A DNA stretch of 35,717 bases from Planctomycetota bacterium. Its GTDB lineage: Bacteria; Planctomycetota; Planctomycetia; Planctomycetales; Planctomycetaceae. A program made the position numbers and the translations under genes. This document shows, in pieces, positions 10,250-18,479 of this stretch. Position 1 is the first letter of the stretch. Each line of letters opens with the position of its first letter. The stretch is taken from positions 1 through 35,717 of the forward strand of contig QWPB01000047.1 in NCBI GenBank assembly GCA_003671275.1. The letters are read 5' to 3'. Below the pieces are notes generated by a model. The model was not told where the DNA came from. It saw nothing but the letters and a program-made list of their open reading frames with translations, and searched no databases.

Positions 10250-10399
10250 TTCGCTCGCCGGGTGGTGATCTGGGGAATCCCCCAAGGGGCCCGGAACCTC
10301 GTCCGCTTTCCGGATATCCCCGCGTTTCCCACGGGCCAGGCAAGCATCCGCCCCGCCATCCAGAATCCGAGGGATGCCGCAGCCCGGCTTAGAGAGAGA

Positions 10400-10428
10400 T
10401 TGTATCGTCGGGCATCGCTGGTTATGTT
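10400..10428 (+). promoter_or_regulatory. Possible sigma70-type promoter for the ECF sigma operon
   Basis: TTGTAT at 10400-10405 and TATGTT at 10423-10428 are separated by 17 bases, each matching four of six consensus positions. Transcription would start near 10435 and leave a leader of about 120 bases before the sigma factor start. The assignment is by eye only. Confidence 0.3.
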
Positions 10429-10491
10429 CAAATGATACACACTGCGGTTCTGACCACTTTCCACGAAACCTGACCGTCCGCCCGGTGTTTC

Positions 10492-10560
10492 ATGGAAGAC
10501 GACGCAAAGCTGGCCCGTTCGGGCGGTTTTGCACTTCACACAAGGTGTCGGCACACGTGA
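10492..10560 (+). other. Short upstream frame overlapping the sigma factor start
   Basis: A 22-codon frame starts at ATG 10492 (MEDDAKLARSGGFALHTRCR) and its TGA at 10558-10560 overlaps the GTG at 10557 as GTGA. If translated, it could couple ribosome arrival to sigma factor synthesis. There is no strong Shine-Dalgarno before its ATG, so it may be chance. Confidence 0.25.
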
Positions 10561-11174
10561 CCACTGCCACTAGTCCCGCCGCAAACCCTTACCTCAAAGA
10601 TCCCGATGTCCAGCTGATGCTTCGCGTCCGGGAGGGTGATGAGGCTGCGTTTGCGCAGCTTGTGGCGACTTACCAGGACCGGCTGATCGGGTTGCTGACT
10701 AATATGGTCGGCGATCGCACTTCCGCCGAAGACACCGCCCAGGAGGTTTTCCTGCGCATCTATCGGGCCCGCCATGGTTACGAGGCCAATGCGAAATTCT
10801 CCACCTGGCTGTTCAGCATCGCCCATAACCTGGCCAGCAACACTCGCCGTTCTCATTCACGTCGCAAGGAGTCCCAGCTGAACTCGGCTCCAGATAGTTC
10901 CGGCCCGCAATCGCCGCAGGAACAACTGGTCGCCGAGAAGTCGGCCCTGATGCCCTCGCGGGTCATGGCCAAAGCGGAACTCATTGAAAAAGTGCAGGCG
11001 GCCATGGAGTCCTTGAACGAACGCCAGCGGATGGCCCTGCTGCTGCACAAATTCGAGGGGATGAACTACATCGATATTGGAGCGGCCATGGAGATGACTC
11101 CCCAGGCGGTGAAGTCCCTGTTGTCGCGAGCCCGGGATCAGCTGCGAATGGCGCTGGAAGGGTACATCCAATGA
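10557..11174 (+). CDS. ECF-type RNA polymerase sigma factor
   Basis: The product (about 205 residues, MTTATSPAANPYLKDPDVQL) is a sigma70-family extracytoplasmic-function factor. Region 2 spans FAQLVATYQDRLIGLLTNMV through SAEDTAQEVFLRIYRA and KFSTWLFSIAHNLASN. Region 4 lies at the C-terminus: SLNERQRMALLLHKFEGMNY, then the helix-turn-helix IDIGAAMEMTPQAVKSLLSR. It directs core RNA polymerase to its own promoters and is normally held inactive by an anti-sigma factor, which fits the next gene. The frame is open further upstream to 10374, but that segment is Cys/Arg-rich and not sigma-like. GTG 10545 and GTG 10557 are the realistic starts; I prefer 10557, which has AAGG upstream. The operon continues into the anti-sigma-like gene 60 bases downstream. 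Confidence 0.9.
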   Translation: MTTATSPAANPYLKDPDVQLMLRVREGDEAAFAQLVATYQDRLIGLLTNMVGDRTSAEDTAQEVFLRIYRARHGYEANAKFSTWLFSIAHNLASNTRRSHSRRKESQLNSAPDSSGPQSPQEQLVAEKSALMPSRVMAKAELIEKVQAAMESLNERQRMALLLHKFEGMNYIDIGAAMEMTPQAVKSLLSRARDQLRMALEGYIQ

Positions 11175-11234
11175 TCCGCTTCCCCTCGGTCTCGAGAAAC
11201 TGGTCGCTCATCCCCCATCCACGGGAGGTGCGTC

Positions 11235-11756
11235 ATGGATAAACTCCGCCGCGTCTCCCCCGAGGTTCGGGATAATTTCGTAGCCTATCTCGACGGGGAA
11301 CTGCCGCCCCCCGACATCAAGCAGTTGGAGCAAATCCTGGCTGATAGCCCGGTTGCTCGCAAGGATGTCGAAGCCCTGGTCCGCACCTATGAATTGCTGG
11401 ACCTGCTACCTCGACCACAGGCGACCGTCGAATTCACCCAGAAGACGATGGCCACGGTGAAGCTCTCGGATCTCAAGACCGACATCACACAGACCGCCTG
11501 GTACAAACAATTCCAGCTTGGTCTGGCGGGGGGGCTGGGCTGGCTGCTGGTCGCCGGAGTCGCACTGGTGGCTTACCTGGGAACCAACCGCTGGGTACCC
11601 TCCGAAGATGACCTCAAGCTACGTGATTTGCAGGTCATCAAGAATATCGACAACTACAGCCAGGCGGGCAGCTACGATTTTATCGAGCGGCTGGAGCGAT
11701 CTCCGAAGCTGATGCAGGAGATCCGTGAGGAAGTGAGGACTCGCCATGGCCGCTAA
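11235..11756 (+). CDS. Membrane anti-sigma-factor-like protein
   Basis: The 173-residue protein begins MDKLRRVSPEVRDNFVAYLD behind a strong ribosome-binding site, GGGAGGTG. The N-terminal segment DNFVAYLDGELPP and the following helices resemble the sigma-binding domain of anti-sigma factors, but the zinc-binding His-x3-Cys-x2-Cys motif is absent. One transmembrane helix spans about residues 95-116 (LGLAGGLGWLLVAGVALVAY), leaving a cytoplasmic N-terminal domain and a roughly 57-residue extracytoplasmic tail. The likely role is to hold the preceding sigma factor at the membrane and release it on an envelope signal. The assignment rests on context, topology and the N-terminal motif. It overlaps the next gene by 11 bases, a sign of coupled translation. 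Confidence 0.75.
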   Translation: MDKLRRVSPEVRDNFVAYLDGELPPPDIKQLEQILADSPVARKDVEALVRTYELLDLLPRPQATVEFTQKTMATVKLSDLKTDITQTAWYKQFQLGLAGGLGWLLVAGVALVAYLGTNRWVPSEDDLKLRDLQVIKNIDNYSQAGSYDFIERLERSPKLMQEIREEVRTRHGR

Positions 11757-13321: not shown

Positions 13322-13735
13322 TTCTGCGGAGACACGGCGGTCTTTCGGAGTTCGGCGTCGACTGACAATCAGTTCTTAGGGAGCTTGCAGGGTACGAGGC
13401 ATGAGCACTGTCTTTCGAGGGGACGATGGAACAGAGATGAAAGGAAGAGGCGACGCGCCATCGTCGACCTCGATGCATTCGAGCAACAATCCTTCACAAT
13501 CAGTATGCGGCTTATTTCCCAGTCAGGCAAAAAATGCGGACTAAACTTCAGAGGAAAGCCAGCAGGTTACGGACGATTCCATGGAATCGTCCGATTAGTT
13601 GGGTAATTCCAATTAAGGCAGCTTCTCCGCCGCTCTCTCCAGTGAACTTGTTGACGTTCGCCAACATGTTCCGCCAAGGCCCTTTTTTCAACCTAATTTT
13701 CGGCGGTGCCCCTTGACTGCCACGGAAAATCCGTC
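13322..13735. other. Divergent intergenic region upstream of FHA-EAL gene
   Basis: About 330-410 bases, depending on the start of the minus-strand gene. The part next to 13321 may code for the N-terminus of that gene. The rest has no convincing frame. Its outstanding element is the 24-bp perfect palindrome at 13570-13593. It is followed by a looser TTGG-N6-CCAA repeat near 13599-13612. No clear -35/-10 pair was found. Confidence 0.5.
13570..13593. promoter_or_regulatory. 24-bp perfect palindrome, candidate operator
   Basis: The 12-base half-site CGGACGATTCCA is followed without a gap by its exact complement, centred on an NcoI-like CCATGG. As RNA it would fold into a 10-bp stem with a CATG tetraloop, but no U-run follows on either side, so it is not a standard terminator. 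It lies about 143 bases upstream of the FHA-EAL start and in the leader region of the divergent small gene. A dimeric repressor site is the simplest reading. Confidence 0.5.
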
Positions 13736-14908
13736 ATGTCTTTGTCAACAATCCGCCTGCCCCTGTCCGGGACGTCTATCAAGACGGAAACCGGATGGAC
13801 CTTGTCAGGCTGTCTGCCGCCATCCCGTTCGCTGACATCGATCGCGATTGACGCGGACTCCTTTGTGATTGGCCGCCGTCCGGGTGTGAATTTGCAAGTT
13901 TCATCGGCCCGCGTCTCGGGCCGGCATGCTGAACTGCTGCGGGTCGGAGATCACCTGTTCATCCGTGACCTGGGCAGTACCAATGGAACCTTCGTCAATC
14001 GCCGTCGGGTCCGACAGCCGACGCCGATCGGAGATGGCGCTCATATTGAAATCGCCGACTTGGAATTCCGCCTGGAAATGCGGAAATCGACCGTCAACTT
14101 TTCTCCCTTGAAAAAGACCGCCGAGTGCATCGACACGATGGAGTCGGAGTGGATTCTAAGTCAGTTCGATCGTCTGATTCGCGAACGGGAAGTCGTCTCA
14201 TTTTTCCAGCCGATTATCGACCTCGAAAACAACGCCATCATCGGATACGAGGCACTCGCCCGAAGCACGGTGCCGGGGCTCGAAAATCCGGGAATGATGT
14301 TTCAAACCGCTCAGATGGTCAGTCGGGAAGTCGAACTGTCACTGATCTGCCGTCAACGTGCCATGGAAGGCTCGACCCAACTGCCGACAGGCTCACGAAT
14401 CTTCGTGAACACGCACCCCATGGAATCTCTGACGATCGATCTGCTGCCTTCGATCACCGTGTTACGCCGGAAGTATCCCGAGACGCCAATCATTGTCGAG
14501 ATCCATGAAGGGGCGATTCATGACCCCAAAATGATGGGCGATCTGGCACGTGAACTTCGTGATCTATCCGTAGAGATCGCTTACGACGATTTCGGAGCAG
14601 GACAGGCCCGGCTGGTGGAACTAGTCAAGGTTCCCCCCGATTACTTGAAATTCGACATGTGCTTGATTCGGAATATCCATGAAGCCGATCCTCAACAACG
14701 CCGGATGTTGAAGATGCTCGTTGATATGGCCCGCGATATCCCCACCATTACCTTGGCGGAAGGGATCGAGAATCAGAACGAAGCCGATGTCTGTCGAGAA
14801 CTGGGGTTCCAACTGGCCCAAGGCTATTACTTTGGCCGACCCATGAAAGTCGATCAGGCGGCCGCGTTTGCAGCCATTCAGCAATCCAAAGTCGCATCTG
14901 GCATGTAA
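13736..14908 (+). CDS. FHA domain - EAL domain c-di-GMP phosphodiesterase
   Basis: The product from ATG 13736 (MSLSTIRLPLSGTSIKTETG) is 390 residues. An FHA domain covers about residues 42-113, with the hallmark GRRPG, SARVSGRHAEL and RDLGSTNGTFVN, and should bind phosphothreonine on a partner. A short linker leads to an EAL domain at about 140-382. The metal and catalytic residues are all present: Glu172 in YEALAR, Asn225 in VNTHP, Glu255 in IVEIHE, Asp284-Asp285 in AYDDFGAG, Lys305 in YLKFD, Glu342 and Glu345 in AEGIE, and Gln362 in AQGYYFGRP. It is therefore predicted to hydrolyse c-di-GMP to pGpG in the cytoplasm, recruited by Ser/Thr kinase signalling. There is no GGDEF domain and no membrane segment. 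A GTG at 13706 is a weaker alternative start. The stop is 15 bases from that of the convergent HEAT-repeat gene. Confidence 0.92.
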   Translation: MSLSTIRLPLSGTSIKTETGWTLSGCLPPSRSLTSIAIDADSFVIGRRPGVNLQVSSARVSGRHAELLRVGDHLFIRDLGSTNGTFVNRRRVRQPTPIGDGAHIEIADLEFRLEMRKSTVNFSPLKKTAECIDTMESEWILSQFDRLIREREVVSFFQPIIDLENNAIIGYEALARSTVPGLENPGMMFQTAQMVSREVELSLICRQRAMEGSTQLPTGSRIFVNTHPMESLTIDLLPSITVLRRKYPETPIIVEIHEGAIHDPKMMGDLARELRDLSVEIAYDDFGAGQARLVELVKVPPDYLKFDMCLIRNIHEADPQQRRMLKMLVDMARDIPTITLAEGIENQNEADVCRELGFQLAQGYYFGRPMKVDQAAAFAAIQQSKVASGM

Positions 14909-17146: not shown

Positions 17147-17528
17147 CCTTGATCTCCGACAGCCGACTACGACAACCCGCGAATGATTCACGGCGAAGAC
17201 TGGAAATGTACCCTCAGCGGTACACTTTGCCCGTTACGGTTTTATCGAGGCTGCCGGGGTGAAGGCTTGAGAGGGGTTCACCGGTCTGAGGTAACGGAAC
17301 CACTCCCGACAGGCATCTCCTGAAGTTTCATTAGAACCACTCTTCCAGGTACAACCCATACAAGCCATTCTCATTCTGGTAACCTTTTCCGAATACTCCA
17401 ATAAAACCACTAACTAACAATATCGCAACGTGGGGAAAACCCCAGAAACTGAAATCCCCACTTCATCGGAGTCCACATCATGCACAATTACCAGAACCCA
17501 TGTCTCACACTACTTGTCAGGAATACTC
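17147..17528. other. Divergent intergenic region with nested inverted repeats
   Basis: About 380 bases separate the HEAT-repeat gene and the solenoid gene. A nested structure can be drawn: outer arms CCGTTAC (17231-17237) and GTAACGG (17291-17297), inner arms GGTGAA (17258-17263) and TTCACC (17277-17282). A short TGGGG-AAAA-CCCCA hairpin lies near 17430. The frame of the downstream gene is open from 17430, but the extra N-terminal residues do not look like coding sequence. No strong promoter was recognised. Confidence 0.35.
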
Positions 17529-18479
17529 ATGATCCGTTCCCGGTCTTCTCGTGATGCGGTGATCGCTCTGGAATCGCGTCGGATGCTGTCAGGAAATGTT
17601 CAGGTCACCCTGAATGGATCCACGTTGACGATCACCGGCGACAACTCCAACAACGAGCTGGCTGTTGAACAGACGGTAGGCGGTTTACAGGTCCGGGCCA
17701 TCAATGGAACGAAGCTCAATGGAACTGCCGATGGCAGTTTGGTCTTCTCCAACCCTTCACGCATCAATCTGGACCTCCTGGGAGGCAATGACCAGTTGTT
17801 CTTGAGCGACTTCCTGGGAGGAACCGTGAATGTGCAGATGGGAAGTGGGAATGACACCCTCACCCTCGAAGGCATCAACTCTGATGGCGCACTGACTATC
17901 GACCTCAACTCAGGAAATGACCGCCTCGAAGCCCGTCTGGGTGGTTCCGAACCGACGGACTCGAATGTCGTGGGTGGCAATTTCACCCTGCAATGTGGCA
18001 ACGGGAATGATACGGTCCTCATTGGAGCTTTGAACGCTCTCCAGAACATTTCGATCGATGGTAACAACGGAAACGATGTCATTGGACTGGGCGCTGGACG
18101 TACCGATGGCACCACGTCCATCCTGCTGGGAAATGGCAACGATACCGCCGGCCTCTCCGATCGCACCTTGGTCGGCAACTTCAGTTTGAATGCCGGAAAC
18201 GGTGACGACCTCGTGGGATTGAATCAACTCGAAGTCGAGGGAGCGTCGACCATTGAACTGGGAAATGGCAAGGACGCACTGCTCAGCCAATCAACGGCCT
18301 TCTACGGGAATGTGTCTCGCAAGGGAGGGACTGGAACCGACCAGATTTTCTCTCAAAACGACACATTCTTCAGTGGAAACAACGTGACAGAGTTTGAACT
18401 GACAGTGATGAACCCCAGCACGATCGCCTCTCTGGCTTCACGACTGCAGAAACTGTTCGGGATTAATCTCGGTGTATAG
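17529..18479 (+). CDS. Secreted beta-solenoid-like protein with 22-residue GxGND repeats
   Basis: The start is ATG 17529 (MIRSRSSRDAVIALESRRML), with AGGA six bases upstream. The N-terminal LESRRMLS matches the LExRxLLS signature found at the N-terminus of many planctomycete surface proteins. The 316-residue chain then carries nine Gly-x-Gly-Asn-Asp-type turns (GGNDQL, GSGNDTL, NSGNDRL, GNGNDTV, NGNDVI, GNGNDTA, GNGDDLV, GNGKDAL, GTGTDQI). Their Asp residues fall at 88, 109, 131, 161, 183, 205, 227, 249 and 271: 22-residue steps, with one 21 and one 30. Strands such as GNFTLQ, QNISID and TSILL lie between turns. This resembles RTX-type calcium-binding loops but with one turn per 22-residue coil instead of per nine. 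It is likely an extracellular or cell-surface protein. A terminator follows. Confidence 0.8.
   Translation: MIRSRSSRDAVIALESRRMLSGNVQVTLNGSTLTITGDNSNNELAVEQTVGGLQVRAINGTKLNGTADGSLVFSNPSRINLDLLGGNDQLFLSDFLGGTVNVQMGSGNDTLTLEGINSDGALTIDLNSGNDRLEARLGGSEPTDSNVVGGNFTLQCGNGNDTVLIGALNALQNISIDGNNGNDVIGLGAGRTDGTTSILLGNGNDTAGLSDRTLVGNFSLNAGNGDDLVGLNQLEVEGASTIELGNGKDALLSQSTAFYGNVSRKGGTGTDQIFSQNDTFFSGNNVTEFELTVMNPSTIASLASRLQKLFGINLGV

Follow-up and report, generated by a model that had tools for sequence, protein, structure and literature searches.

Can an FHA domain joined to an EAL domain place the breakdown of c-di-GMP under the control of Ser/Thr phosphorylation and, if so, what does the FHA domain bind? 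The question is raised by a gene in the window, by which we mean the whole 35,717-nucleotide stretch of planctomycete DNA that was analysed (contig 17 of a 5.03-Mb genome that is 99.2% complete). An initial annotation had proposed that the fusion leads from Ser/Thr phosphorylation to c-di-GMP breakdown. This idea is still the leading one, since the conserved parts of the protein support a scheme that runs from a kinase to Thr128, the FHA domain and the EAL domain; it is changed in that the ligand probably lies in the protein itself and in that the fusion is a common trait of the family. The features discussed below are located in Table 1.

The reading frame is conserved across independent genomes and is therefore genuine, which rules out a spurious or chance ORF. 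An alternative GTG start at position 13706 would add 10 residues to the protein, and simple promoter and terminator scans around the gene gave nothing firm. We found that the N-terminal domain is indeed an FHA domain, as first annotated: Pfam FHA (PF00498) matches residues 44-106 of the window protein (E = 6.3e-18; 65.4 bits against a curated cut-off of 20.7), and R47, S61 and N83 are in place, together with H64. Pfam EAL (PF00563) matches residues 144-369 (E = 6e-38), far over its curated cut-off. In the AlphaFold2 model (mean pLDDT 85.5), a strand-rich N-terminal domain at residues 20-116, in the place of the Pfam FHA match, is followed by a linker with pLDDT below 50 (residues 119-135) and then by the EAL barrel. 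The solved structures nearest to this barrel are c-di-GMP phosphodiesterases, the top match being PdeA (3u2e; Z = 29.7 over 249 residues, rmsd 2.0); the structural comparison spans residues 132-386 in most rows, and the evidence for the FHA fold is the match in sequence together with the model.

Every catalytic residue of the EAL domain had also been annotated as present, and this held both in the sequence and in the register of the alignments to solved EAL chains. The window protein has E172 and R176 (in EALAR), N225, E255 and E258, and D284-D285 (in DDFG), and further K305 and D307, E342 and E345, and Q362. Nine of these (E172, N225, E255, D284, D285, K305, D307, E342 and Q362) align with catalytic positions of solved EAL proteins. 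By the individual roles that such residues have in the EAL literature, E172 is a catalytic metal ligand and N225 a metal ligand.

Table 1. Positions in the window of the FHA-EAL gene, its domains and the residues discussed in the text.
Feature	Positions	Strand	Basis or remark
FHA-EAL gene	13736..14908	+	390 aa plus stop; ATG at 13736
FHA domain, folded extent in model (residues 20-116)	13793..14083	+	Pfam, AlphaFold2 model
Pfam FHA core	13865-14053	+	Pfam
R47, expected phosphothreonine-binding Arg	13874..13876	+	62/62 relatives; role by comparison with DgcB R61
S61, expected phosphothreonine-binding Ser	13916..13918	+	62/62 relatives
N83, expected ligand-strand Asn	13982..13984	+	62/62 relatives
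Variable FHA-EAL linker (residues 117-135)	14084..14140	+	alignment; pLDDT <50 over 119-135
Thr128, conserved linker Thr; candidate phospho-acceptor and FHA ligand	14117..14119	+	alignment, shuffle control
EAL domain (residues 144-369)	14165..14842	+	Pfam, structural matches
E172, EAL motif	14249..14251	+	sequence, alignment
N225 to H227	14408..14416	+	H227 family-specific
E255, H257, E258	14498..14509	+	H257 family-specific
D284-D285 (DDFG) and following loop with R292	14585..14611	+	R292 family-specific
K305 and D307 (LKFD), catalytic	14648..14656	+	alignment
E342 and E345 (AEGIE)	14759..14770	+	alignment
Q362 (QGYYFG)	14819..14821	+	alignment
H227 / H257 / R292	14414-14416 / 14504-14506 / 14609-14611	+	family-specific residues

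The survey of planctomycete domain architectures that the initial annotation had suggested was carried out, and it showed the fusion to be common in the family and not peculiar to this genome. A relative with E of 1e-40 or better was found in 32 of 61 family genomes (43 matches, one a fragment), and any EAL domain in 36 of the 61 (75 matches). As the FHA-EAL count equals the total EAL count in 14 of these 32 genomes, FHA-EAL is often the sole EAL protein. The second, weak EAL matches of family genomes were compared with FHA-EAL, and none of them matched it over both domains. One family genome has a gene for a GGDEF protein followed by an EAL-HDOD-like gene (L216:3782-7106), the product of which reads, by eye, like an EAL-HDOD protein. 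A sample of 294 genomes from the phylum, the window's own included, yielded 14 two-domain matches in 12 genomes, with at least 38% identity, and one divergent two-domain relative (L026, 27% identity). Among the matches listed, two-domain relatives occur in records of Planctomycetaceae, Pirellulaceae and Lacipirellulaceae and also in records titled Pseudomonadales, Halieaceae, Proteobacteria, Sumerlaeaceae and Dadabacteria. Confinement of the gene to planctomycetes was thus rejected on account of relatives under other phylum labels, which are metagenome-assembled genomes, some of whose bins may be mislabelled. Three pairs of FHA-EAL proteins are identical (G266 and L044, G323 and L045, G320 and L052).

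For the alignment of FHA-EAL relatives, 67 rows were collected and three exact duplicates (L126, L186, L204) removed, which left 64; counts over 62 rows, and the tree, also leave out two fragments (L051, L055). R47, S61 and N83 are invariant among the 62 non-fragmentary relatives. The nine catalytic residues are all kept in 60 of the 62 (the exceptions are L214 and L227), and all twelve EAL residues in 58. The family also carries marks of its own in or beside the catalytic motifs, namely H227 (60/62), H257 (59/62) and R292 (62/62). The phylum search also gave 17 EAL domains with matches that fall short of the FHA part, and none of these has any of the three at the corresponding position. Judged from the alignment, these residues could signal altered chemistry.

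The linker is otherwise variable and, in the model, predicted to be disordered, and within it stands one conserved threonine. Thr occupies the column of Thr128 in 59 of the 64 rows (57 of 62 without the fragments), and elsewhere in the stretch from 114 to 138 no column rises above 32 of 64. When the linkers alone were aligned, the best Thr column held 41 of 64 rows, as against 10-23 in 20 alignments of shuffled linkers. The five rows that lack Thr in this column are L037, L059, L131, L192 and L214, and four of them have a Thr a few residues off; L214 has none close by. The sequence that follows the threonine conserves no single clear FHA motif across the 64 rows. A phospho-acceptor that serves as FHA ligand would be expected to look like this, a conserved Thr within a disordered linker beside the FHA domain; alignment, model and analogy make Thr128 a candidate for this role.

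The analogy is with DgcB, an FHA-GGDEF diguanylate cyclase of Bdellovibrio bacteriovorus. Its FHA domain binds the protein's own N-terminal tail at Thr14, the ligand is held by R61, S75 and N97, and locking the tail by a disulphide strongly raises activity (PMC6733907). By motif, R47, S61 and N83 of the window protein correspond to these three residues. The two proteins are therefore alike in having an N-terminal FHA domain with matching binding residues on a c-di-GMP enzyme, the control being proposed for the window protein, and in having as ligand a Thr from a flexible segment of their own chain, shown in DgcB and proposed here. They differ in that DgcB makes c-di-GMP and has its Thr in the N-terminal tail, whereas the window protein has an EAL domain and carries its conserved Thr in the flexible linker between the domains.

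GarA and OdhI are FHA proteins without an enzyme domain. Both bind their own phosphorylated tail, being named as self-interacting in the DgcB paper (PMC6733907), and so resemble the window protein in carrying FHA domain and ligand Thr in one chain, as is proposed for the latter. A hybrid of Microcystis aeruginosa likewise combines FHA and EAL in one protein and differs by an additional GGDEF domain; it is a genome annotation (PMC7063779). Bd1971 shares with the window protein an N-terminal sensor and a single EAL domain (E = 8.6e-19, Z = 27.3), but its solved forms (PDB 6hq4, 6hq5, 6hq7) bind, by their PDB titles, the cyclic nucleotides cAMP and cGMP and not an FHA ligand. Searches of the open-licence literature yielded no paper that deals with an FHA-EAL phosphodiesterase or with the linker Thr; the one paper in which FHA occurs together with EAL domains and planctomycetes uses the abbreviation for filamentous hemagglutinin. 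Already in print are FHA domains on c-di-GMP enzymes, kinase-FtsZl1 fusions in planctomycetes and a single association between FtsZl1 and a diguanylate phosphodiesterase.

We consider it reasonably probable that FHA-EAL is a soluble, phosphothreonine-gated c-di-GMP phosphodiesterase, in which Thr128 is phosphorylated in trans and bound by the FHA domain, with a change in the rate of hydrolysis. A Ser/Thr kinase would act in trans on Thr128 in the flexible linker; the phosphorylated linker would be bound by an FHA domain, its own or that of the partner chain in an EAL dimer; and the FHA domain would then shift relative to the EAL barrel, so that c-di-GMP would be hydrolysed at a different rate. 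We infer in this way the hydrolytic activity, the phosphorylation of Thr128, its binding by the FHA domain, the control through the dimer and the identity of the kinase. By analogy with DgcB we have a weak preference for activation by phosphorylation over inhibition.

Neighbouring genes were screened by blastp with three kinase queries against stop-to-stop ORFs, at loci some of which have short flanks; divergent kinases may be missed by such a screen. Of the 62 loci, 48 fall outside the window's clade, and 21 of these have a kinase-like ORF no more than 5 kb from FHA-EAL; none of the 14 inside the clade has one (P = 0.0013 by Fisher's exact test, not corrected for relatedness). No kinase was found in the more distant flank, 257,776 bases in all. 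A quick tree places the window in this clade of 14 rows without kinase neighbours (branch value 99, starred), and any kinase must therefore act in trans. Conserved synteny in the clade was rejected, as clustering found no neighbour common to all of its members. Elsewhere in the window, at 10374-11756, a gene for an ECF-type sigma factor is followed by a small gene whose product has one apparent transmembrane stretch and, by eye, is perhaps an anti-sigma factor; GNGND-like motifs recur in the protein encoded at 17430-18479, for which Pfam gave no match.

Three types of kinase make up these neighbours: Pkinase-Tubulin_2, Pkinase-DUF5939 and dCache-Pkinase. The first, with an ATPase gene nearby, accounts for 18 of the 21 kinase loci (L038, L046, L049, L050, L052, L053, L054, L056, L195, L196, L197, L200, L203, L207, L210, L211, L213 and L227; three kinases were checked against Pfam). 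The ATPase in this recurring cluster is of the AAA type, and gene order varies, with FHA-EAL first, last or divergent. These labels count loci, not independent events; in the quick tree, the root of which is unsure, the starred branches force at least five changes of the Pkinase-Tubulin_2 label. Elsewhere, a Pkinase-DUF5939 ORF lies 31 bases upstream of the FHA-EAL ORF (L133) or overlaps it (L209), and a dCache-Pkinase lies on the opposite strand (L131). At four loci of the Pkinase-Tubulin_2 cluster a GGDEF gene stands directly upstream of FHA-EAL on the same strand (L038:3641-4834, L195:7348-8442, L210:5723-6712 and L211:7517-8572; three checked against Pfam). The N-terminal half of these GGDEF proteins is without a Pfam match in the three tested and looks CBS-like by eye. 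Tubulin_2 occurs in 12 family genomes, each of which carries FHA-EAL, as compared with 32 of 61 overall (hypergeometric P = 1.3e-4), and 11 of 13 Tubulin_2 matches lie inside examined FHA-EAL loci; because the genomes are related, P values for such associations are guides only.

One of the 18 clusters stands apart. At L227:6054-7265, a gene for an FHA protein with a degenerate EAL domain adjoins ATPase and Pkinase-Tubulin_2 genes; the protein has lost nearly all of the EAL catalytic residues and has kept the FHA domain, the linker Thr and the kinase neighbours. Control may thus not always run through hydrolysis, and the L227 protein is, on its residues, a candidate non-catalytic receptor.

Makarova and Koonin (2010) reported a kinase domain in four FtsZl1 proteins of planctomycetes, and the authors' response in the same paper associates FtsZl1 of Pirellula staleyi with the diguanylate phosphodiesterase Psta_0487; FHA is absent from the main text (PMC2875224). 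A tubulin-like domain is the commonest partner among those limited to cytoplasmic planctomycete kinases, according to another study (PMC11032199). The sister-group relatives of the window protein resemble these FtsZl1 (Tubulin_2) operons in adjoining Pkinase-Tubulin_2 genes, but the window gene differs: adjacent ATPase and Pkinase-Tubulin_2 genes are absent, and its genome has no Tubulin_2 match. A tentative and rather doubtful extension of our reading is that FHA-EAL forms the c-di-GMP arm of a planctomycete machine together with a Ser/Thr kinase fused to a tubulin-like GTPase, an AAA-type ATPase and a GGDEF cyclase. The kinase would phosphorylate the linker Thr, the FHA domain would capture it, and the level of c-di-GMP would track the state of a cytoskeleton-like filament; the EAL domain would have decayed to a receptor in some lineages, as in L227, and the phosphodiesterase of the window's clade would be a stand-alone unit served by another kinase.

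Alternatively, the EAL domain might be constitutively active and the FHA domain might only dock the enzyme to a partner protein that is phosphorylated, for example a kinase after autophosphorylation, so that control would be local and not allosteric. Kinase genes adjoin the relatives in several arrangements, and the kinase itself would be an obvious FHA partner; moreover, since the linker is disordered in the model, tight coupling of FHA to EAL is not evident. Pure docking has, however, no need of a conserved linker Thr and leaves it unexplained, and we regard this alternative as unlikely. Thr is a common helix cap, and a second alternative takes Thr128 as structural, capping for instance the helix at residues 133-149, with the FHA domain gated by a ligand from outside. 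Thr128 does lie near the first helix of the EAL domain, modelled from residue 133 onwards, but it stands five residues ahead of that helix and within the stretch of pLDDT below 50, and a partly conserved Asp at 133 (32/64) is a likelier cap; a purely structural Thr therefore seems distinctly improbable. In our view it is very unlikely that the EAL domain serves chiefly as a receptor for c-di-GMP or has a different cyclic dinucleotide as its substrate: L227 keeps architecture and neighbours with a degenerate EAL domain and H227, H257 and R292 are unusual, but selection for catalysis is the simple reading of the intact residues in 60 of 62 relatives, and the five GGDEF matches in the window genome make it likely that the substrate is present.

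Profile searches of the window's genome gave a single EAL match, FHA-EAL itself, along with five GGDEF, eight HD_5, 21 FHA and five MshEN matches and 40 Pkinase matches, some of which are pieces of one gene; PilZ was sought as an effector and was not found. FHA-EAL is thus the only EAL-type phosphodiesterase found in this genome, and HD-GYP-type enzymes may share its work. An orphan EAL protein in a genome without c-di-GMP synthesis is ruled out by the GGDEF matches. The phosphorylation route first annotated is favoured by the conserved phosphothreonine-binding and catalytic residues, the linker Thr, the kinase neighbours outside the window's clade and the Pkinase matches in its genome; the lack of kinase neighbours inside the clade and the degenerate EAL domain of L227, despite its FHA domain and kinase neighbours, speak against it.

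One of the GGDEF proteins of this genome, P0002, is itself an FHA-GGDEF protein (contig 13:5764-6672, minus strand; L004/L039) with a GGEEF motif that is intact by eye, and is likely the synthetic counterpart of FHA-EAL. Its I-site position reads, by eye, RxxE and not RxxD. A search of the tails of FHA-GGDEF proteins brought up no clear case of a conserved Thr. Full-length FHA-GGDEF proteins like P0002 occur in 13 family genomes, 11 of which also have FHA-EAL (P = 0.009; the genomes are related).

Planctomycetes have many Ser/Thr kinases, few targets of which are known. FHA-EAL offers a specific residue in Thr128, an activity that can be measured and, for the sister groups, a kinase encoded alongside it; the conserved inter-domain Thr and the frequent kinase gene neighbours of the relatives make a link from kinase to c-di-GMP directly testable. 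If the proposed scheme is true, FHA-controlled breakdown of c-di-GMP would complement the FHA-controlled synthesis by DgcB, a case that has been studied structurally, and, as the window genome also has an FHA-GGDEF protein, both arms of c-di-GMP turnover could be under phosphothreonine control. In the relatives with Pkinase-Tubulin_2 clusters, the scheme would link c-di-GMP to a tubulin-like system whose function is unknown.
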